Positions 51,004 through 62,278 of a DNA stretch of 64,000 nucleotides are shown piece by piece. Source of the stretch: Hyphomicrobiales bacterium (GTDB taxonomy: Bacteria > Pseudomonadota > Alphaproteobacteria > Rhizobiales > Beijerinckiaceae); assembly GCA_019075905.1 (NCBI GenBank), contig JAGXAM010000002.1, positions 62,001-126,000 on the forward strand, given 5' to 3'. Every line of letters starts with the position of its first letter. Position 1 is the stretch's first letter. Below the pieces are notes generated by a model. The model was not told where the DNA came from, did not search any database, and worked only from the letters and a program-made list of their open reading frames with translations. The position numbers and the translations under genes were made by a program.

Positions 51004-53424
51004 CTACCCGGTCACGCCGAGCTTTTCGGCAGCCTTCCACAACCGCCAGGCATCATGCGGCATCTGAATATGGGTCGAGCCAAGGAATGAAAACGCATCA
51101 TTGACGGCATTGGAGAATGCCGGCACGCCGCCGACATTCGGACTTTCACCCACGCCCTTGGCACCAATCGGGTGATGTGGCGACGGCGTCACCGTGTGGC
51201 CGGTCTCCCAATGCGGGGTTTCGACGGCGGTTGGCAGGAAGAAATCCATGAAGGAGGCTCCCATGACATTGCCCATGTCATCGTAGCGGATTTCCTGGCC
51301 CATGCTGATGGCGAAAGCCTCCGTGAGCCCACCATGCACCTGCCCTTCGATGATCATCGGGTTGATGCGCGTGCCGCAATCATCGAGCGCATAGAAGCGT
51401 CGGGTCTTGGCGACACCCGTATCAACGTCGATATCCATGACGCAAATATAGGCGCCGAACGGATAGGTCATATTCGGCGGATCATAATAGCTCACCGCTT
51501 CCAGCCCCGGTTCCATCCCCGGCGGCGGCGCGTGATAGGCGACCCAGGCAATATCTGTCATGGTCTTGAAGCGCTCGGGCACGCCTTTCACCTGGAACCG
51601 GTCGATATCGAAGGTCAGGTCGTCCTCATGGACTTCGAGCAGCCAGGCGGCGATCATCTGCGCCTTGGCCCTGATCTTGCGCGCCGCCATGGCAATCGCC
51701 GCCCCGGCCACCGGGGTCGAGCGCGAGCCATAGGTGCCAAGTCCGTAGGGCGCCGTGTCAGTATTGCCCTCCTCGACCATAATATCGCTGGCGGCAATGC
51801 CGATCTCGCTGGCAATGATCTGCGCCCAGGTGGTCTCATGGCCCTGACCGGTGCTCTTGGTTCCGACACGGGCAATGGCGCTGCCGGTGGGATGGATCCT
51901 GATTTCGCAGGAATCAAACATGGCAAGGCCGAGAATATCGCAATTCTTGGAAGGCCCGGCCCCGACGATTTCGGTAAAGAAGCACACGCCAATGCCCATG
52001 ATGCTGCGGGTCTCGCCGCGCTTGAAGGCCTCGCGCCTGGTCTTTTGCTCGGCGCGCAGCCCGGCATAATCGACCGCCGCCATCGCCTTGTTCAGCGCCG
52101 TCGCATAATCGCCGCTGTCATATTCCCAGCCGAGCGCCGATTGATAGGGGAATTGCTCGCGCCTGATGAAATTCTTCAGGCGCAATTCGGCCGGGTCCAT
52201 GCCGAGCTTCTGCGCCAGAATATCCATGCCGCGTTCGATGGCATAGGCCGCCTCGGTCACACGGAACGAGCAGCGATAGGCCACGCCGCCGGGGGCCTTG
52301 TTGGTATAGACGCCATCGACGCAAAGATGCGCCACCGGAAAATCATAAGAACCGGTGATGATATTGGAAAAGCCGGCGGGCCATTTGGACGGATCGGCGC
52401 AGGCATCAAAGGCACCATGATCCGCCAGAATATGCACCCTGAGGCCGGTGACCTTGCCGTCCCTGGTGGCGGCGATTTCCGTGCGCATGTGATAATCGCG
52501 GGCAAAGGAGGTGGTGGAGAGATTCTCCATCCGGTCCTCGACCCATTTGACCGGTCTGCCCGTGACAATCGACGCCACGACGGCACAGACATAGCCGGCA
52601 TAGGCGCCAACCTTGTTGCCAAAACCGCCACCGACATCCGGCGCGATCACGTGGATCTTGTGTTCGGGGAGTTTCGATATCAGCGACACCACGGTGCGGA
52701 TGACATGCGGTGCCTGAAACGTACCCCAGAGCGTCAACTCGCCCTTGATCTTGTCGAATGAGGCAAGGCACTGGCAGGTCTCGAGCGGCGAGGGATGGGT
52801 GCGGTGATAGGACAGCAACTCGTCGATCTTCACCTCGGCGCGGTTAAACGCCTCATCAGTCAGCGACTTGTCGCCCACCTGCCATTTGAAAATATGATTG
52901 TGGTGGTCGCGCTTGCCATGGGCACCCTCAGTCTTGCCGGCGAGATCCTCGCGCAGCACCGGTGCATCTGCTGCCATGGCCTTGAACGGATCGACAATGA
53001 CCGGCAATTCCTCGTAATCGGCTTCAACCAGTTCGACCCCGTCGGCCGCGGCCTGCAGGCTGGTCGCCACCACAAAGGCAATTTCCTGATTTTGAAACAG
53101 CACCTTGCCGTCAGCCAGCACCATCTGCACATCGCCCGCCAGCGTCGGCATCCAGGCGAGATTGACGGTTTTCAGGGTCTCGGCGGTGATTACCGCCACC
53201 ACACCGGGCACTTTCTCGGCCTTTGACGTGTCGATCTTCCTGATCCGCGCATGGGCATAGGACGAGCGCACCATGTCGCCATAGAGCATGGCCGGCAGCT
53301 TGATGTCATCGACATAGGTGCCGCGCCCCTGGGTGAAGCGCACATCCTCGACGCGCTTGCGCTTGCAGCCCATGCCTTCGAGCCGGGCCTCACGGGCTTC
53401 TCTGGTCGGGGTCATGTCGTTCAT
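51004..53424 (-). CDS. coxL: Carbon monoxide dehydrogenase large subunit, form I
   Basis: An 806-residue molybdopterin subunit oxidising CO to CO2. The form I active-site loop AYRCSFR is present with the Cu-bridging Cys385 (388 in A. carboxidovorans), and Glu760 stands in GAKGVGES (763 in the reference). Form II enzymes have AYRGAGR instead, so this is a true CO oxidiser by sequence. Molybdopterin-binding segments such as GGGFGNKVG and [11 protein letters not shown] are visible. ATG 53424 overlaps the coxS stop by four bases. Confidence 0.97.
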
Positions 53425-53921
53425 TGCGCTGCCTCCGCGATTGTCTCGCCGTTGAGCGTTGCTGCCGCGTGCTGAATGGCCTTGACGATGTTCTGGTAGC
53501 CGGTGCATCGGCAAAGGTTGCCGGCAATGCCCTGACGAATGTCATCCTCACTGGGGTGCGGATTTTCCTGCAACAGGCGCCAGGCGCGCAGGATCATGCC
53601 CGGCGTGCAATAGCCGCATTGCAGCCCGTGCATCTGCCGGAAGCTTTCCTGCAGCTGGTGCAGGGTGCCATTGGCCTCGGCCATGCCCTCGATGGTGCGG
53701 ATCTGCGCGCCTTCGGCCTGCACCGCAAACCGGGTGCAGGATTTCACCGAAACGCCGTCGAGATCGATGGTGCAGGCGCCGCAATGGCTGGTCTCGCAGC
53801 CAATATGCGTGCCTGTGAGGTTCAGCGTCTCGCGTATGAAATGCACCAGCAAGGTTCGTGGTTCGGCAAGGCCGCTGACCTCCTCGCCATTCACGGTCAT
53901 TGTCACATTGATCTTTGCCAT
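53421..53921 (-). CDS. coxS: Carbon monoxide dehydrogenase small [2Fe-2S] subunit
   Basis: A 166-residue iron-sulfur subunit. The plant-type cluster ligands lie in [16 protein letters not shown] with a following Cys, and the second cluster in [12 protein letters not shown] and [12 protein letters not shown]. It passes electrons from the Mo-Cu centre to the FAD in CoxM. The M-S-L gene order, with coxS between coxM and coxL, is the form I arrangement (form II operons are S-L-M). Confidence 0.96.
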
Positions 53922-53945: not shown

Positions 53946-54806
53946 TCAGGCAGCGCGCTGCTGCGCCCGGGCCAGCGCCCGCGCCAGCATGATGCCTGCC
54001 ATTTTGCGTCGATAATCCGCCGGGCCGCGCCCGTCGGCGGCCGGATCGGTGATGGCTTCAGCCGCAGCCACCGCCTTTTTCACGGCGTCAGCCTCCAGAC
54101 GGGTGCCGACCAGCAGCGCGGCGGCGTCCTTGGCCCAGAGCGGCGTCGGCGCCACATTGGTGAGGCCGATGGCGCAGCTCGTCACCTCGCCACTCCGCAG
54201 CGTCAGCGCCACGGCCGCAGCCGCGACCGCATAGTCCCCGACCTTGCGTTTCAGCTTCTCATAGGCCACGCCCTGGCCCGCCACCACCGGCACCTGGATC
54301 GCCGTGACGATCTCGCCGGCGGCCAGCGCCGTATCATAGGCGCCGCGATAAAATTCCCGCGCCTTGATCTGCCGCGCGCCCTTGGGACCCTGCACCATAT
54401 ATGTTGCATCAAGGCACATCATCACCGCGGGCATGTCATTGCCGGGATCGCCATTGGCGACATTGCCGCCCAGCGTGCCAAGCGCCCTTATTTGCGGATC
54501 AGCGATCTGTTGCGCGGCCTCAATCAGCAGCGGCGCCTTGACCTGTACCAGAGCAGAACCCAGCAGCGCCCTTTGCGTCACCATGGCCCCTATAACGAGC
54601 CCGTCCGGCTCCTCGCGCAGCACCGCCAGATCGGCAATTGCAGCAAGATCAACAAGATGCGAGGGCGACGCCAGGCGTTGCTTCATCATCGGAATCAGGC
54701 TGTGGCCGCCTGCCAGCGGGCGCGCTTCGTCGCCATGGGTGGCCAGCATGGCGATCGCGTCGCTCAGGGTTTTGGGACGCAGATATTCGAAAGCGCCGGG
54801 GATCAT
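53946..54806 (-). CDS. coxM: Carbon monoxide dehydrogenase medium (FAD) subunit
   Basis: A 286-residue flavoprotein. FAD motifs PLAGGHSLIPMMKQRL (AGGHS) and RALGTLGGNVANGDPGNDMP (TIGGN-like) are present, with the C-terminal CO-dehydrogenase flavoprotein domain. ATG 54806 follows CGGAG. The 123-bp gap before it holds three 20-bp spaced repeats (54883-54936) that probably control the operon. Confidence 0.96.
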   Translation of the reverse strand: MIPGAFEYLRPKTLSDAIAMLATHGDEARPLAGGHSLIPMMKQRLASPSHLVDLAAIADLAVLREEPDGLVIGAMVTQRALLGSALVQVKAPLLIEAAQQIADPQIRALGTLGGNVANGDPGNDMPAVMMCLDATYMVQGPKGARQIKAREFYRGAYDTALAAGEIVTAIQVPVVAGQGVAYEKLKRKVGDYAVAAAAVALTLRSGEVTSCAIGLTNVAPTPLWAKDAAALLVGTRLEADAVKKAVAAAEAITDPAADGRGPADYRRKMAGIMLARALARAQQRAA

Positions 54807-54882
54807 CACGAGAACTCCGCGATTGATTTAAGTCAATGCGGGGTAACTGACGCCATGGTGCAATGCACATTCAAGGCCCGCC

Positions 54883-54936
54883 GCACGAGGCCTCCCTCAA
54901 GCGCACGAGTTGCGTCGAATTTGCACGAATTACGTC
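54883..54936. promoter_or_regulatory. Three GCACGA repeats at 20-bp spacing upstream of coxM
   Basis: GCACGAG at 54883, GCACGAGTTGCGTC at 54903 and GCACGAATTACGTC at 54923 start exactly 20 bases apart, about two helical turns. The last two share 12 of 14 bases. LytTR proteins bind direct repeats with about this period, and the upstream gene coxC encodes a LytTR protein. The array ends at the coxC 3' end and lies 77-130 bases from the coxM start. Confidence 0.6.
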
Positions 54937-56051
54937 AGCAGCACTGACGCACTTGGTGCAGTTTCGCCGCTATCGCGGTCAGCCAAGCGTGACTTTACCG
55001 GTGCGATGCGGGCGCGCGCTACGGGTATTTTGCGATGCACCATGCAGCGCATGTCGAGGCGTGCGCTGTCGCCTGCGCGGCGCAGGCCCACCACATGCTC
55101 GACATTGACAATGAAAGAGCGATGAACGCGGACGAATTTTTTCTGGTTCAGCGCCGCCTCAAGCTGGCTGATCGGCAGCGGACAGAAATATTCATGCTGG
55201 GCATCGCTGATATAGGTGTAATGCGCATTGGCGCGGATGACGTGAACATCCTGCAGCGCCAGCACGATCCTGCGGCCATTCTGGTCAACCTGGATGGCAT
55301 CCATGCCGGGCACGGCCGGGGCTTTCGGCACTTCGGGCGCCAGCACTCCGTGGCGCGGCAGCAGCGACAGCAAGAATGCCGCTGAAATGGCAAAGGCCGC
55401 CAGCGCCACCAGCAGCGCCAGCGCACCAGCGCTCAGCGCCGCAGGCGGCGGCGGTGTCATGGCCGCCAGCGGATTCATGGTCATGCCGGCCACCGCCACA
55501 TAATGCATGCCCGCCACCGAAAACGCGAAAATCCCAGCCGCCGCCCACAACGGCGCACGATTATGCCCTTGCTGCATCACCCAGATCGCGAAGCTCGATC
55601 CGGCAATACCGATCAGCAGGCTCGCCGCCACAAACCCCGGCCGGTTGGCCATGATGACTCCGGAATCCAGCCCGGCCATGCCGACATAATGCATGGCGGC
55701 AATGCCAAGCCCCATCAGCAAGCCGCCGACCAGCACGCGGGCCGGGCGTTGCAGCGGCGCATGGATGGCATAGGTCGCCGGGCCGACCACCAGCGCGCAA
55801 ATCAGCAGCGACAGCAAGGTTGGCAGCGCCGTGAACCGGGGCGGCACCGCAAAGCGCAGCGCCAGCATGCCGATGAAATGCATCGCCCAGATGCCGGTCG
55901 CCAGCGACGCCGCCGCCCCCATCAACAACAGCCGGTCGCGGCTGTCACCATCGCCCGTGACCTGCGCTGTCAGGCGAAAGCCGACATAGCCGCCCTGCGC
56001 GGCAATCAGCACCGACAAGGCAACAAGCAACGGATCATAGGAAAATACCAT
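54930..56051 (-). CDS. coxC: CoxC-like MHYT/LytTR regulator
   Basis: A 373-residue membrane protein. Seven or so helices carry the MHYT pattern three times (WAMHFIGMLAL, AAMHYVGMAGL, AGMHYVAVAGM), a proposed metal- or gas-sensing module. The C-terminal 100 residues are a LytTR DNA-binding domain (VHVIRANAHYTYISDAQHEY; FVRVHRSFIVNVEHV). CoxC and CoxH of A. carboxidovorans have this architecture. ATG 56051 is chosen over a TTG upstream. It is first in the cox operon and divergent from sqr. Confidence 0.9.
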   Translation of the reverse strand: MVFSYDPLLVALSVLIAAQGGYVGFRLTAQVTGDGDSRDRLLLMGAAASLATGIWAMHFIGMLALRFAVPPRFTALPTLLSLLICALVVGPATYAIHAPLQRPARVLVGGLLMGLGIAAMHYVGMAGLDSGVIMANRPGFVAASLLIGIAGSSFAIWVMQQGHNRAPLWAAAGIFAFSVAGMHYVAVAGMTMNPLAAMTPPPPAALSAGALALLVALAAFAISAAFLLSLLPRHGVLAPEVPKAPAVPGMDAIQVDQNGRRIVLALQDVHVIRANAHYTYISDAQHEYFCPLPISQLEAALNQKKFVRVHRSFIVNVEHVVGLRRAGDSARLDMRCMVHRKIPVARARIAPVKSRLADRDSGETAPSASVLLT

Positions 56052-56210
56052 GAGCGGGCCTTTGGGCAAAACCGTCCGGTCGATATTAGCATTGTTCAGG
56101 CCTGAATCGATGCCTGATTTTCAGCAGATCAAACCAGCGCCCGAAACAGCGCGCCAGCGTGCCAGACCCCTGTTCGCGACACCCTTGATCCTGCGACGCT
56201 TTGACTTCAT

Positions 56211-56226: not shown

Positions 56227-56346
56227 GTGTCCTGAATGCGATATCCCCTGGCCTTGTTGGGTCTGTCACAACAGGCAGCCAATGAAAATCCGCGACAAAT
56301 CGCGGATGGGAGGAAACCCGGGTCAAGGCAAGGGCAGGAGGACATC

Positions 56347-57633
56347 ATGGCAAGAATAGCAATTCTCGGTGCGGGGTTGGGGGGCACGATCCTCGCCTAT
56401 GAGCTGAAAGGCAAGCTCGGCAAGAATGATACGATGACGGTCATCAACAAGGGCTCGGTCTATAGTTTCGTGCCTTCGAACCCCTGGGTCGCCGTCGGTT
56501 GGCGCGCCCGCAAGGACATCACCGTCGATCTGAAACCGGTCATGGCCAAGCGCGGCATCGTGCTCAAGGACCAGGGCGCCAAGCGCGTCCACCCGGATCA
56601 GAACCAGGTCGAACTCACCGACGGTTCCGTCGTCGATTATGATTATCTGGTCATAGCCACCGGCCCGGATCTCGCCTTTGATGAAATCCCCGGGCTCGGG
56701 CCGCATGGCAATACCGATTCCGTCTGCGAGGTCGATCACGCCCTGAGTTCCAAGGCCAATTTTGATCGCCTTGTCGCCAATCCCGGGCCGGTCGTTGTCG
56801 GCGCCGCCCAGGGCGCGTCCTGCTTTGGCCCGGCCTATGAATATGTCCTGACCCTCGACACCGCACTGCGCCGCGCCCGGGTGCGCGATCGGGTGCCGAT
56901 GACATTCATCACGCCTGAGCCCTACGTCGGCCATCTCGGCCTGGATGGCGTCGGCGATACCAAGGGCATGGTCGAATCGGTGCTGCGCGACCATCACATC
57001 AAGTGGATCACCAATGCCCGCATCACAAGGGTCGAGCCCGGCAAGATGTTTGCCGAGGAAGTCAATGATGATGGCACCGTCAAGATGGCGCACGAACTGC
57101 CCTTCAACATGTCGATGATCCTGCCGCCGTTCCGCGGCGTGCCGGCGGTCTTTGGCCTCGAAGGACTGACCAACCCGCGCGGCTTCATCATCGTCGACAA
57201 GCACCAGCGCAATCCCAGATATCCCAATGTCTTCGCGCTCGGCGTCTGCGTGGCGATCCCGCCCATGGGCAAGACCCCGGTTCCGGTCGGTGTGCCCAAG
57301 ACCGGCTTCATGATCGAATCGATGTCGACGGCCATCACCGCCAATATCGACGCCCTGATCAAGGGCCGACCCGCCAATGCCGTCGCGACCTGGAATGCCA
57401 TCTGTCTCGCGGATTTCGGCGATTCCGGCCTGGCCTTCATCGCCCAGCCGCAGATCCCGCCGCGCAACGTCAACTGGTCGTCGGAGGGCAAGTGGGTGCA
57501 TCTGGCCAAGATCGGCTTCGAAAAATACTTTCTGCACAAGATCCGTCGCGGCCATGCCGAGACGTTTTACGAGAATCTCAGCCTGAAAATGCTGGGCATC
57601 GACAAACTGAAGCAAACCAGCATCCAACCCTGA
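56347..57633 (+). CDS. sqr: Sulfide:quinone oxidoreductase
   Basis: A 428-residue FAD flavoprotein. The N-terminal FAD motif ILGAGLGGTILAYELKGKLG and the second GPVVVGAAQGASCFGPAYEY are clear. Three Cys fall near the catalytic positions of SQR: Cys127 (SVCEVDH), Cys159 (GASCFGP), spaced 32 as in the Acidithiobacillus enzyme, and Cys353 (NAICLADF). It oxidises sulfide to polysulfide and reduces quinone at the inner membrane face. ATG 56347 follows AGGAGG; the upstream extension is unnecessary. Confidence 0.9.
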   Translation: MARIAILGAGLGGTILAYELKGKLGKNDTMTVINKGSVYSFVPSNPWVAVGWRARKDITVDLKPVMAKRGIVLKDQGAKRVHPDQNQVELTDGSVVDYDYLVIATGPDLAFDEIPGLGPHGNTDSVCEVDHALSSKANFDRLVANPGPVVVGAAQGASCFGPAYEYVLTLDTALRRARVRDRVPMTFITPEPYVGHLGLDGVGDTKGMVESVLRDHHIKWITNARITRVEPGKMFAEEVNDDGTVKMAHELPFNMSMILPPFRGVPAVFGLEGLTNPRGFIIVDKHQRNPRYPNVFALGVCVAIPPMGKTPVPVGVPKTGFMIESMSTAITANIDALIKGRPANAVATWNAICLADFGDSGLAFIAQPQIPPRNVNWSSEGKWVHLAKIGFEKYFLHKIRRGHAETFYENLSLKMLGIDKLKQTSIQP

Positions 57634-57677
57634 GCCCGGGAGGATGCCTGAGGCTCATCAACCCATGGAGTTCTGAA

Positions 57678-57881
57678 ATGACTGCTGACCGTGCCGTACT
57701 CGCGCTTGCCGGGTCTATGGTGCTGATCTCATTGCTGCTTGCGCATTGGGCATCGCCATGGTGGCTGTTGCTGACGGCGTTCGTCGGCCTCAATCTGCTG
57801 CAATCGGCCTTCACCGGCTTTTGCCCCGCGGCGATGATTTTCAGGCGCCTCGGATTCAAGAGCGGTTGCGCATTCAACTGA
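57678..57881 (+). CDS. DUF2892 (YgaP-like transmembrane) protein
   Basis: A 67-residue membrane protein with two helices and the DUF2892 end (SAFTGFCPAAMIFRRLGFKS). Such segments form the membrane part of YgaP rhodaneses and occur as single genes beside sqr and other sulfur genes. ATG 57678 lies 44 bases after the sqr stop. Cys in FTGFCP and near the C-terminus (SGCAF) are typical. A role in sulfide/persulfide handling is inferred from context. Confidence 0.85.
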   Translation: MTADRAVLALAGSMVLISLLLAHWASPWWLLLTAFVGLNLLQSAFTGFCPAAMIFRRLGFKSGCAFN

Positions 57882-57900
57882 TCTTGAGACTGGCTTTGTT

Positions 57901-57924
57901 CGACCCTGCAAGGTACGAGGGTCG
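57901..57924. other. Intergenic hairpin between the DUF2892 and RND adaptor genes
   Basis: Perfect 7-bp arms CGACCCT (57901-57907) and AGGGTCG (57918-57924) around a 10-base loop. There is no T-tract, so it may moderate rather than end transcription, or stabilise the upstream mRNA. Confidence 0.35.
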
Positions 57925-57977
57925 CACACACTTCATCCCGTCTGTATGACCAGACCCGATCGCAAATGATGGACTGA

Positions 57978-59027
57978 ATGATGCGCAAGAATTACTTTGC
58001 CAAAGGTCGGCTGGGTCTCAGTGCGGCCCTTGTGGTTCTCGCAGCCCAGATATCGGCCGCCAGGGCTGCCGATCTCAAGATTCAACTGCTGACGGTGCCT
58101 GATTACAAGGCAGTTTTCGGCCAGATCGAAAGCCGCAACGTGCTGCCCGCCCGCACCCGCATCGGCGGCACGCTGGCGACAGTAACAGTCACAGAGGGCA
58201 CGCTGGTCAAGAAGGGCGAGCAGATCGCGCTGGTCTCCGATCCAAAGATCGCCTTGCAAATCCAGGCGGCTGCCGCCTCGGTTCAGGCGGCCGCCTCGCA
58301 ACTGAACAATGCGCAAAAGCAATTTGACAGGGTCGACCAGCTCCTGAAACAGAAAATCAGCTCGCAGGCCGCCTATGATCAGGCCAAGACCCAGCTTCTG
58401 GTGGCCAAGAACCAGGTCGCCGTGGCGCAGGCCAACCAGAAGGTCCTGCAACAGAACGCCAAGGATGGTGCGGTTCTTTCTCCGGCTGAGGGCCGTGTCC
58501 TGACCGTGCCCGTGGCGGCAGGCTCGGTGATCCTGCCAGGCGAGGTCGTGGCCAATATTGCCAGCGGGCCGTATTTTCTGCGCCTGTCCCTGCCAGAAGC
58601 CGTGGCGCCGCGAATTCGCAAGGACATCAAGGTTTTGATTGGCTCACCCGGGCAACTTTCGCGCGTCAACCAGAACCTGTCCGGCATTGCCACCGGCACC
58701 GTCGTCAAGGTCTATCCGCAGATCAGCGGCGGCCGGGTTCTCGCCGATGTCAGTGTTGCCAATCTCGAAAGCTATTTCGTCAATGAGCGCACGCTGGTGT
58801 GGATTCCTATCGGCACCCGCAAGGTGATTGCGGTCCCGCAGGACGCGATCTCGCTGAAGAATGGCATTGATTATGTCCATATCAATGATGCCGGCAGCGC
58901 CATCGCCGTCGCCGTCATCCCTGGTGACGAGATTGCCGGCCCGGAAGGCCCGGAGCGCGAAATCCTCACCGGCCTGCACGAAGGCGATGTCGTGATTGTG
59001 CCGGGCGCTGGAAAGTCGGGACAATAA
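57978..59027 (+). CDS. RND efflux periplasmic adaptor (membrane fusion protein)
   Basis: A 349-residue adaptor with a signal peptide (to about residue 30, AARAADL). The lipoyl halves are split by a coiled coil (AAAASVQAAASQLNNAQKQF to QVAVAQANQKVLQ), followed by beta-barrel and membrane-proximal domains. It has no lipobox Cys. ATG 57978 and 57981 are alternative starts. It pairs with the RND pump two bases downstream. Confidence 0.92.
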   Translation: MMRKNYFAKGRLGLSAALVVLAAQISAARAADLKIQLLTVPDYKAVFGQIESRNVLPARTRIGGTLATVTVTEGTLVKKGEQIALVSDPKIALQIQAAAASVQAAASQLNNAQKQFDRVDQLLKQKISSQAAYDQAKTQLLVAKNQVAVAQANQKVLQQNAKDGAVLSPAEGRVLTVPVAAGSVILPGEVVANIASGPYFLRLSLPEAVAPRIRKDIKVLIGSPGQLSRVNQNLSGIATGTVVKVYPQISGGRVLADVSVANLESYFVNERTLVWIPIGTRKVIAVPQDAISLKNGIDYVHINDAGSAIAVAVIPGDEIAGPEGPEREILTGLHEGDVVIVPGAGKSGQ

Positions 59028-59029
59028 TC

Positions 59030-62000
59030 ATGAATCTTGGACTTGGACTTGCCGGACGACTGACACGGGCGTTTATCGTCTCCCCGTTGACCCCCCTTTT
59101 CCTGCTCGCCGCCATTGCCGTCGGGCTGCTGGCGCTGGCAACGCTGCCGCGCGAGGAAGATCCGCAAATTTCCGTGCCCATGGTCGATATCAGCGTGCCC
59201 GCCAATGGCCTCAAGGCGCGCGATGCGGTCAAGCTGGTCACTGAACCTCTGGAGACCATCGTCAAGAGCATTCCCGGCGTCGATCATGTCTATTCCGAAA
59301 CCGAGGACAATCGTGTCCTGGTGACGGCACGTTTCAAGGTTGGCACCAAGGAAGATTCCGCCTTCGTGCGGGTCAATGAAAAAGTGCGCGCCAATCTCGA
59401 CCGCTTGCCGGTCGGCATCCCGCAACCCATGATCGTCGTGCACGGCATTGATGATGTCGCGATTGTGGTGGTGACGCTGACACCGACCGAGAAGGCCAGC
59501 GCCAAATGGAACGAGAACGGCCTGACCCGCCTCGCCCGCGAACTTCAGGTCCAGATCGCGCAACTGCACAATATCGGCCTGACCTATATTGTCGGCGCCC
59601 AGCCTGAAGAAATTCATGTCGAGCCCGATCCCGAAAAGCTCATGCTTTATGGCGTGACGCTGCAGCAGCTCACCGCCAAGATACAGGGTGCCAACAGCGC
59701 TTTCCTCGCCGCCAAGGTCCGGCGCGACGGCAAGCAGGAGGATCTGATCGCCGGCCAGACGCTAAAGTCGCTGAACTCGATCCGCAATCTCCTGATCACC
59801 ACGCGCAACGGCCGGCCAGTCTATGTGCGCGACATTGCCAAGGTCGCGCTCGCCACCCACACCGCCGAATCCTACGTCACTGACATTCGCAGCATTGGCG
59901 GCAAGCTTCAGCGCCGCCCGGCAGTATCCCTCGCCATAGCCAAGCGCCCCGGCACCAACGCCGTTGTCATTGCCGACAGCATTACCCGGCGTCTCAATCA
60001 GCTGCACGGCGAGATTTTCCCGCGCGACGTCAACATGACGATCACGCGCAACTACGGCGATTCAGCCAATGCCAAGGCCAACGAGCTCCTGCTGCATCTG
60101 GCGATTGCGACAATATCCATCGTGTTGCTGGTCGGGTTCACCATTGGCCTGCGCCCGGCCTTCGTCGTGGCGATCGTCATCCCCACCACCATCCTGCTGA
60201 CGCTGTTTGCCTCGAAACTCATGGGCTACACGCTCAACCGCGTCAGCCTGTTCGCCCTGATTTTCTCCATCGGTATTCTGGTCGATGATGCCATTGTCGT
60301 CATCGAGAACATCACCCGCCATTGGGCCATGGATGATGGACGCTCGCGCATCGATGCCGCCGTCGAGGCCGTGGCGGAAGTCGGCAACCCGACCATTGTC
60401 GCAACCCTCACGGTGGTGGTGGCGCTGCTGCCGATGCTGTTCGTTTCCGGCATGATGGGCCCTTATATGAGCCCGATCCCGGCCAATGCTTCGGCCGCCA
60501 TGCTGTTTTCATTTTTTGTGGCCGTCGTGCTTACGCCTTGGCTGCTTATCAAATTTGCCGGCAAGCAGCCGGCCGGACATGGCCATGATCATGGTCACGC
60601 GCAATCCTGGCTGGCGCGCGGCTATGTGCGCATTGCCCGCCCGATTCTGGTATCGCGCCGCCGTTCGCTGATTTTCCTGATCCTTGTCGGCATCGCCACC
60701 CTCGGCTCGATGACGATGTTTTACACCGAGCAGGTCACGGTCAAGCTGCTGCCCTTCGACAACAAGAGCCATCTCGATGTCGTGCTGGATTTGCCGCGCG
60801 GGTCCTCGGTCGAGGACACCAACCGCAAATTGCAGCAGATTGTCGACCTTCTCGCCCCGGTCAAGGAAGTGGTCTCGTTCCAGACCTATGCCGGCACGGC
60901 ATCGCCCTATGATTTCAATGGCCTCGTTCGCCATTATTACCTGCGCAACGCCCCCCAGCAGGGCGACGTCATGGTCAACCTGCTGCCCAAGGATGACCGC
61001 TCACGCGCCAGCCATATCATCGCGCTGGCCATGCGCAAGCGCCTCGCCGCGCTGCATCTGCCGCGTGGTTCCGTGCTGAAACTGGTGGAATCGCCACCCG
61101 GGCCGCCGGTGCTCGCCACCATGATTGCCGAAATTTACGGGCCGACGGCTGCCATCCGCCGCGCTGTCGCCCGCAAGGTCCGGCAGGCCTTCCTGAGCGT
61201 GCCCTATATCGTCGATACCGACGACAGCTACGGCACACGCGCCGAGCGCGTTCGCATGTCGATCAATCAGGACAATCTCGAATATTACGGCGTCGAGCAA
61301 AGCGACGTCTACGCGACCATCAACGATCTCGATCAGGGTGTGCCGGTCGGCTATTCGGATCGCGGCATGGGCCGTCAGCCGATCCCCATCCGCATCACCA
61401 TGCCCAAGAGCCGCCAGACGGTGAGCCAATATTCTCTGGCAACGCCGGTGCCGGCCAACACCCTGCCGGGCAACCGCACCGTGGTAGAGCTCGGCGACGT
61501 CGTCAATGTCACGCAGGAAAAGGCCTCCTACCCGATTTACCGCCACAATGGCCGCCCCGCCGAAATGGTCATGGGCGAAATGGCCGGTGCCTATGAAGCG
61601 CCAATTTACGGCATGCTGGCCGTCGACAAGGCGATCGACAAAGCCAATTGGGGAACCTTGCCCAAGCCCATCATTTCCCTGCACGGGCGCCCGACCGACG
61701 AGGCCAAGCCGGTGCTGCTGTGGGACGGCGAATGGGATGTGACCTGGGTCACGTTCCGGGACATGGGCGCGGCCTTCATGGTGGCGCTGATCGGCATCTA
61801 TGTGCTGGTCGTGGCGCAATTTGGCTCGTTCAAGCTGCCGCTGGTGATTTTGACGCCGGTGCCGCTGACTTTCATCGGCATCATGCTCGGTCACTGGCTG
61901 TTCGACGCCCCCTTCACCGCAACCTCGATGATCGGCTTCATAGCCCTCGCCGGCATCATCGTCCGCAATTCGATCCTGCTGGTCGATTTCATCCGCAACA

Positions 62001-62278
62001 CCCGCGATCCGGCGCGGCCGCTGATTGACACATTGCTCGAAGCCGGGGCCATCAGGTTCAAGCCGATCCTGCTGACCGCCCTTGCCGCCATGATCGGCGC
62101 CGTGATGATCCTCACGGACCCGATCTTCCAGGGCCTTGCGATTTCGCTGCTGTTTGGTCTGACCTCGTCAACTGCGCTCACGGTGCTGGTCATTCCGGCG
62201 ATCTATATCGTGCTGCGTGGTGACAAGGCGAAACCCGCGCCGGAACCGCAAGCCCCCTCTGAACATGCAGGTGCCTGA
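59030..62278 (+). CDS. RND efflux pump inner membrane subunit
   Basis: A 1082-residue proton-driven RND permease with two large periplasmic loops and 12 helices. ISIGILVDDAIVVIEN is the HAE-type helix 4 motif with the proton-relay Asp pair, and IIVRNSILLVDFI is on helix 10-11. A His-rich stretch (GHGHDHGHAQS) lies in the cytoplasmic loop between the halves. It is nearest to the HAE1/AcrB-like branch, not clearly CusA. Placement after sqr-DUF2892 suggests export of a sulfur-related compound (inference). No outer membrane channel gene is adjacent. Confidence 0.93.
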   Translation: MNLGLGLAGRLTRAFIVSPLTPLFLLAAIAVGLLALATLPREEDPQISVPMVDISVPANGLKARDAVKLVTEPLETIVKSIPGVDHVYSETEDNRVLVTARFKVGTKEDSAFVRVNEKVRANLDRLPVGIPQPMIVVHGIDDVAIVVVTLTPTEKASAKWNENGLTRLARELQVQIAQLHNIGLTYIVGAQPEEIHVEPDPEKLMLYGVTLQQLTAKIQGANSAFLAAKVRRDGKQEDLIAGQTLKSLNSIRNLLITTRNGRPVYVRDIAKVALATHTAESYVTDIRSIGGKLQRRPAVSLAIAKRPGTNAVVIADSITRRLNQLHGEIFPRDVNMTITRNYGDSANAKANELLLHLAIATISIVLLVGFTIGLRPAFVVAIVIPTTILLTLFASKLMGYTLNRVSLFALIFSIGILVDDAIVVIENITRHWAMDDGRSRIDAAVEAVAEVGNPTIVATLTVVVALLPMLFVSGMMGPYMSPIPANASAAMLFSFFVAVVLTPWLLIKFAGKQPAGHGHDHGHAQSWLARGYVRIARPILVSRRRSLIFLILVGIATLGSMTMFYTEQVTVKLLPFDNKSHLDVVLDLPRGSSVEDTNRKLQQIVDLLAPVKEVVSFQTYAGTASPYDFNGLVRHYYLRNAPQQGDVMVNLLPKDDRSRASHIIALAMRKRLAALHLPRGSVLKLVESPPGPPVLATMIAEIYGPTAAIRRAVARKVRQAFLSVPYIVDTDDSYGTRAERVRMSINQDNLEYYGVEQSDVYATINDLDQGVPVGYSDRGMGRQPIPIRITMPKSRQTVSQYSLATPVPANTLPGNRTVVELGDVVNVTQEKASYPIYRHNGRPAEMVMGEMAGAYEAPIYGMLAVDKAIDKANWGTLPKPIISLHGRPTDEAKPVLLWDGEWDVTWVTFRDMGAAFMVALIGIYVLVVAQFGSFKLPLVILTPVPLTFIGIMLGHWLFDAPFTATSMIGFIALAGIIVRNSILLVDFIRNTRDPARPLIDTLLEAGAIRFKPILLTALAAMIGAVMILTDPIFQGLAISLLFGLTSSTALTVLVIPAIYIVLRGDKAKPAPEPQAPSEHAGA

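Follow-up and report, generated by a model that had tools for sequence, protein, structure and literature searches.

Three short direct repeats lie between coxC and coxM in the stretch of DNA analysed here (64,000 nucleotides, hereafter the window), and the question they raise is which protein reads them and to what effect. The cox genes stand on the minus strand in the order coxC, coxM, coxS, coxL. The first-pass annotation had called coxC the only LytTR gene nearby and had proposed the repeats as a CoxC/LytTR binding site; the coxC product is in fact the one LytTR match in the whole genome, with no second match that could be RcoM, the haem-PAS LytTR protein. In this study, we compare the repeats with published operators and with related loci. 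The array is very probably a CoxC operator of a coxM promoter, a reading in which we infer that this CoxC binds the array, that a promoter lies at its place and that coxM is repressed rather than activated. The features concerned are listed from coxC onwards.

54930-56069, minus strand: coxC, MHYT-LytTR regulator (open reading frame from TTG, seventh codon ATG; MHYT and LytTR domains)
54933-54949, no strand assigned: palindrome CGTCAG-N5-CTGACG, adjoining copy I, within the last coxC codons
54921-54932, minus strand: putative operator copy I, TAATTCGTGCAA, core TTCGTGCA at 54922-54929 (14.6 bits; overlaps the coxC stop codon)
54901-54912, minus strand: putative operator copy II, CAACTCGTGCGC, core CTCGTGCG at 54902-54909 (11.0 bits)
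54881-54892, minus strand: putative operator copy III, GGCCTCGTGCGG, core CTCGTGCG at 54882-54889 (4.6 bits, the weakest copy)
54869-54874, minus strand: TTGAAT, possible -35 hexamer without support from the consensus scan, 7 bp after copy III
53946-54806, minus strand: coxM, CO dehydrogenase medium subunit (ATG at 54806; GTG at 54809 possible)
53421-53921, minus strand: coxS, small subunit
51004-53412, minus strand: coxL, large subunit (above the cut-off of TIGR02416, NCBIfam, aerobic CO dehydrogenase)

Divergent from coxC, window positions 56236-62278 hold a pyridine nucleotide-disulphide oxidoreductase-like gene, followed by HlyD-type and AcrB-type efflux genes.

The word GCACGAG begins at 54883 and at 54903, and GCACGAA at 54923, a pitch of exactly 20 bp; the first-pass annotation had described these copies, and both the sequence and shuffles of it confirm them. 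The 14-bp repeat with 12 identities that it had seen in the last two copies (54903-54916 against 54923-54936) is borne out by direct reading. Its statement that coxC ends inside the last copy holds for the extended form of that copy and fails for the 7-bp form, which the stop codon (54930-54932) adjoins; copies II and III lie outside coxC. We add a direction, which had not been given: the sense of the array is that of the minus strand, towards coxM, where it reads TTCGTGCA-N12-CTCGTGCG-N12-CTCGTGCG, with both spacers 12 bp, and extends from -126 to -74 relative to the coxM ATG when counted by 12-mers. The word GCACGAR by itself occurs at chance frequency in the window (26 seen, 25.6 expected); the signal resides in the spacing. 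The pair GCACGA-N14-GCACGA was seen twice against 0.01 expected, a count reached in none of 100 shuffles. With up to 3 mismatches allowed, the triple has one match in the window, the array itself, against 0.16 expected, and 14 of 100 shuffles hold at least one match to this looser form. In the genome (2.88 Mb, 33 contigs) the exact triple occurs once and its reversed control never, and YTCGTGC-N13-YTCGTGC is confined to the coxC-coxM array. When 3 mismatches were allowed across the genome, the pattern had 313 matches and its reversed control 214, a contrast too small for this looser search to reveal further targets.

A target of this kind has been published. According to the main text of a 2024 paper (PMC11347149), CoxC of Afipia carboxidovorans OM5 recognises PcoxB through three TTNNNGCN repeats with a spacing of 18-21 bp and acts there as a repressor that is released by CO and for which copper is needed. 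The same text describes the RcoM1 sites of Paraburkholderia xenovorans as three 8-bp TTCNNGCA repeats with 12-13 bp spacers, and canonical LytTR sites as 9-bp repeats that come in pairs, 10-13 bp apart; it also states that binding upstream of the -35 element, with activation, is the mode of RcoM1 and of most LytTR regulators. Like the PcoxB operator, the window array consists of three TTNNNGC-like direct repeats spaced by about two helical turns, and its pitch of 20 + 20 bp falls within the range reported for PcoxB. Both belong to cox clusters that encode an MHYT-LytTR CoxC, whose gene adjoins the array in the window. The window array differs in lying between coxC and coxM rather than before coxB, and in that the first T, present in copy I, is absent from copies II and III: TTNNNGCN fits copy I, and the other two copies read CTCGTGCG, with a C that is the second commonest base at this position in related loci (frequency 0.19). 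The likeness to the RcoM1 sites lies in the spacers (12 + 12 bp) and in copy I, which alone of the three fits TTCNNGCA; RcoM1, however, is a soluble haem sensor and an activator, whereas the window's genome has CoxC as its sole LytTR match. Canonical LytTR sites share the direct repeats about two helical turns apart, but the window has three copies and another core word. The first-pass annotation had considered it new that an MHYT/LytTR Cox regulator should have a defined target on the DNA; for PcoxB such a target was already in print, and the novelty survives for the coxM site to the extent that PcoxM is absent from the main text of PMC11347149, whose supplement, like older OM5 papers and papers on RcoM sites and CO sensors, could mention a coxM array. 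OM5 itself has one in its coxC-coxM gap, TTCGTGCA-N12-TTGGTGAC-N12-CTGGTGCG (L033:6226-6277; 15.4, 8.4 and 6.2 bits, from a gap among the training loci), which also goes unmentioned in that main text.

Related cox operons were compared for repeats of this spacing. A CoxC search gave matches in 61 of 149 genomes, and an alignment of 21 CoxC proteins served to scan named genomes, from which the best 80 of 584 loci were taken. With the loci of the window itself and a plasmid record of OM5 added, the two scans supplied 113 loci, in 86 of which coxM directly follows coxC, with no coxM match in the other 27. Three of the 86 are this window, which leaves 84 distinct loci, and two near-duplicates were dropped, the sole reduction of kinship among them, to give 82 (81 without the window); 59 of these are named records, from the best 80 of 584, and 23 come from other genomes. 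The loci were split at 57% CoxM identity to the window, a proxy for clade rather than a tree, into group A (38 loci, at least 57%) and group B (the other 43). Paralogue controls were 33 upstream regions of CoxM-like genes, 3 from the window's genome and 30 from 80 of 88 related genomes without a CoxC match, among the matches listed. CoxM identity is at least 48.8% across the 82 coxC-linked coxM genes, and in these relatives the presence of CoxC seems to go with this type of coxM. Two operons that are form I by their CoxL have CoxM at 46.5% and 37.6% and lack the array pair (6.0 and -1.6 bits), so CoxM identity is no clean mark of form I. CoxM-like genes were also seen in 59 of the 80 related genomes without a CoxC match, at no more than 45% identity among the matches listed.

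Conservation was assessed without any motif by counting, for each lag, the pairs of 8-base stretches with at least 7 identities in the 81 coxC-coxM gaps that exclude the window. Lag 20 gave 155 pairs (shuffle mean 7.9, maximum 22) and lag 21 gave 201 (mean 8.4, maximum 22), together 356 against about 16 in shuffles; lag 40 gave 35 against 8.9. When the gaps were widened by 10 bp, lags 20 and 21 held 365 pairs, about 16 times the 22.3 of two average other lags. The array in the coxC-coxM gap is strongly conserved. Counts at lags 20 and 21 in the paralogue controls equalled those elsewhere (22 against 22.5). The last 300 bp of coxC (48 against 27.9), the first 300 bp of coxM (59 against 34.5) and the 300 bp upstream of coxC (52 against 36.6) show a slight excess.

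A matrix of the repeat, with consensus CATTTCGTGCA(A/G), gave concordant results. The full matrix was built from the same gaps that it scores, and held-out groups enter only in the cross test of A against B. With the 38 group-A loci as training set, 41 of the 43 remaining gaps scored higher than every one of the 275 controls; with the 43 group-B loci as training set, 35 of the 38 group-A gaps did so. The window scored 26.5 and 26.8 bits under these held-out matrices, against control maxima of 9.8 and 11.0. With the full matrix, a pair of at least 20 bits at lag 20 or 21 is present in 74 of 81 gaps, the scored gaps being the training gaps, and in none of the controls (0/81, 0/81, 0/80 and 0/33). 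When lags of 19 to 22 are allowed, 77 of the 82 gaps, the window included, hold such a pair; the five without one are L071, L052, L039, L015 and L021. The region 300 bp upstream of coxC has no array at 20 bits (0/80), so the PcoxB layout is not general. The strict published word, TTNNNGC, forms pairs in just 35 of the 81 gaps and triples in 7 of them. The median distance from the start of copy I to coxM is 136 bp; a third copy of at least 4 bits follows downstream in 40 of the 77 loci, against 1/77 at each of two control offsets, and a copy 19-21 bp ahead of copy I is found in 0/77. Across the 682 kb of the 82 loci, the full matrix finds 122 pairs of at least 18 bits within the gaps and on the same strand as coxM, and 5 that fall outside the gaps or on the opposite strand. 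One of these 5 (21.1 bits) is formed by the first two published PcoxB repeats, which stand outside the training set; the third PcoxB repeat of OM5 scores just 2.0 bits with the full matrix. Within the window, the pair of copies I and II is strong (25.6 bits), and that of II and III (15.6 bits) stands barely above the best other pairs of the 64 kb (14.8 and 14.5). Pairs of at least 12 bits comprise these two and four scattered ones (12.6 to 14.8), and the same scan found no array upstream of coxC. The first-pass reading of a CoxC/LytTR site thus gains comparative support: the 20/21-bp repeats are conserved between coxC and coxM, so that the lack of conservation which the annotation had named as grounds for refutation is not observed, and their consensus matches the proven PcoxB operator. 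Counting against the operator reading are the five gaps without a 20-bit pair, the modest yield of the strict word, the weakness of copy III in the window and of the third PcoxB repeat in OM5, the lack of a promoter-like site (54700-55100) and the absence of the array upstream of coxC.

Beside copy I lies a palindrome. Group-A loci that have a 20-bit pair number 36, counting the window, and the columns ahead of copy I in them read T-N2-GTCAG-N5-CTGAC-G; the centre is not conserved. The pattern T-N2-GTCAG-N5-CTGAC-N2-A, read off the same loci in which it is counted, matches at 9 or more of 12 positions at a single register in 27 of these 36, with a mean match of 9.56 there against 2.83 at other registers; in group B it stands at that register in 1 of 41. 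The core GTCA-N7-TGAC is exact in 16/36 group-A loci, always at the one position, and in 0/41 of group B. The palindrome lies wholly after the coxC stop codon in 25 of the 36. It is absent before the PcoxB repeats of OM5, as read from the sequence, and for this reason and its rarity in group B, CoxC binding should not need it. In the window's genome the exact palindrome occurs once, with 10 further places at one mismatch.

Several other explanations were weighed. That the repeats arose by chance, or as a side effect of codon choice in the last part of coxC, could draw on the unremarkable frequency of the single word and on the slight lag excess in the coding controls; copies II and III, however, lie outside coxC, the 20-bp pair is unique to the array in the genome and the gap excess is far larger, and the lag test, the shuffles and the held-out matrices refute this explanation, whose probability is next to nothing. 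An RNA element, a hairpin or terminator between coxC and coxM, is very improbable. The palindrome could fold into a 6-bp stem with a 5-base loop, but no Rfam family reaches its gathering score (two chance-level matches fall far below it), no terminator-like site was seen, and of the cells formed by 36 loci and 5 pairs, 42 are broken, against 9 changed on both sides and 6 on one side that are still paired. As changes in the arms mostly break pairing, a protein site on DNA is the likelier interpretation of the palindrome. Sequence by itself leaves room for a non-LytTR protein that reads the array in place of CoxC. We give this little credence: the array adjoins coxC in 77/82 gaps at 20 bits and is absent from 33/33 regions upstream of CoxM-like paralogues, CoxC is the sole LytTR match in the genome, and the word equals that of CoxC and RcoM1.

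Two further explanations concern what CoxC would do at coxM and whether it acts alone there. It is possible, on a tentative view that falls short of even chances, that the coxM control region is composite, the CoxC array being fused at an invariant register to a palindrome read by a second dimeric regulator. The fixed register in group A and the exact core at a single position speak for such a site; its near absence from group B, its absence before the PcoxB repeats of OM5, and the derivation of the pattern from the loci counted, speak against it. CbbR sites have the form TNA-N7-TNA. CbbR, a LysR-type regulator, was considered as the reader of the palindrome, whose TCA-N7-TGA fits that form, but this lacks support: no shared site appeared near RuBisCO, with GTCA-N7-TGAC absent from the 8.5-kb stretch around it. 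That RuBisCO has a divergent LysR-type gene nearby (L165, G000:C29:90500-99000), and given its presence the genome may fix CO2 made from CO. Activation of coxM by CoxC from the same array, as by RcoM1 at its own promoters, is unlikely, though it deserves more weight than another reader or an RNA element. It accords with the TTGAAT close behind the third copy in both the window and OM5, which would place the array upstream of a -35 element, where RcoM1 and most LytTR regulators are reported to activate (PMC11347149, main text), and with the weak arrays of equal pitch that stand some 126-129 bp ahead of coxM in two loci with an RcoM-like gene. Against it, CoxC is described as a repressor at PcoxB in that text, 10 of 41 group-B loci have TTGA within their third copy, as if the copy overlapped the -35 element, and TTGAAT has no support from the promoter scan. 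Repression with release by CO, carried over from PcoxB, is nevertheless less sure than the operator reading itself: a consensus scan of 54700-55100 found no promoter-like site, and the place of TTGAAT after the third copy in the window and OM5 contrasts with that of TTGA inside it in those group-B loci.

If the array is the CoxC operator of a coxM promoter, the membrane-bound CO sensor would control coxMSL through its LytTR domain, with LytTR domains seated on successive copies along one face of the helix and copies I and II supplying most of the binding. If CoxC behaves as at PcoxB in A. carboxidovorans, it would keep the coxM promoter down without CO, and would let go once CO meets the copper-dependent MHYT domain. 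The kind of site is ordinary; what is new is the conservation of the operator at coxM and the palindrome. So far a single promoter of a single strain, the CoxC target would come to include a site ahead of the structural CO dehydrogenase genes, conserved in 77 of the 82 gaps; this suggests that the general target of CoxC is not PcoxB. With its fixed position relative to copy I, the palindrome is a possible second input into aerobic CO oxidation, and a composite region, if real, would join CO sensing to a second signal in one of the groups of loci that bear CoxC. The matrix and coordinates are now available for bench tests.

A LytTR gene that is taken for RcoM-like by its size and place is present in Paraburkholderia aromaticivorans and in Caballeronia sp. 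SBC2; Pfam and NCBIfam give only LytTR-type families for it. A pair of the same pitch lies 126 bp before coxM in the former (19.4 bits; best other pair in that locus 13.4) and 129 bp before it in the latter (13.7 bits, no better than another pair in that locus). This thin evidence hints that one DNA site may serve two kinds of CO sensor, and because a weaker array occurs at the same pitch and place before coxM in these loci, the LytTR array may predate its sensor.

A perfect FNR/FixK-like palindrome, TTGACTTAAATCAA, lies just before coxM (54823-54836, minus strand). One such box in the window is close to what chance would give (0.15 expected), and it was dropped as a shared feature, a perfect box being found in 1 of 82 gaps, that of the window. 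One locus (L020) holds two separate 20/21-bp TTCGTGC pairs in its coxC-coxM gap, some 550 and 134 bp ahead of coxM. Two others (L012 and L013) have strong pairs (25.5 and 24.1 bits) on the opposite strand, about 1.5 and 2.0 kb before coxM and upstream of the gap, which are perhaps operators of divergent genes.
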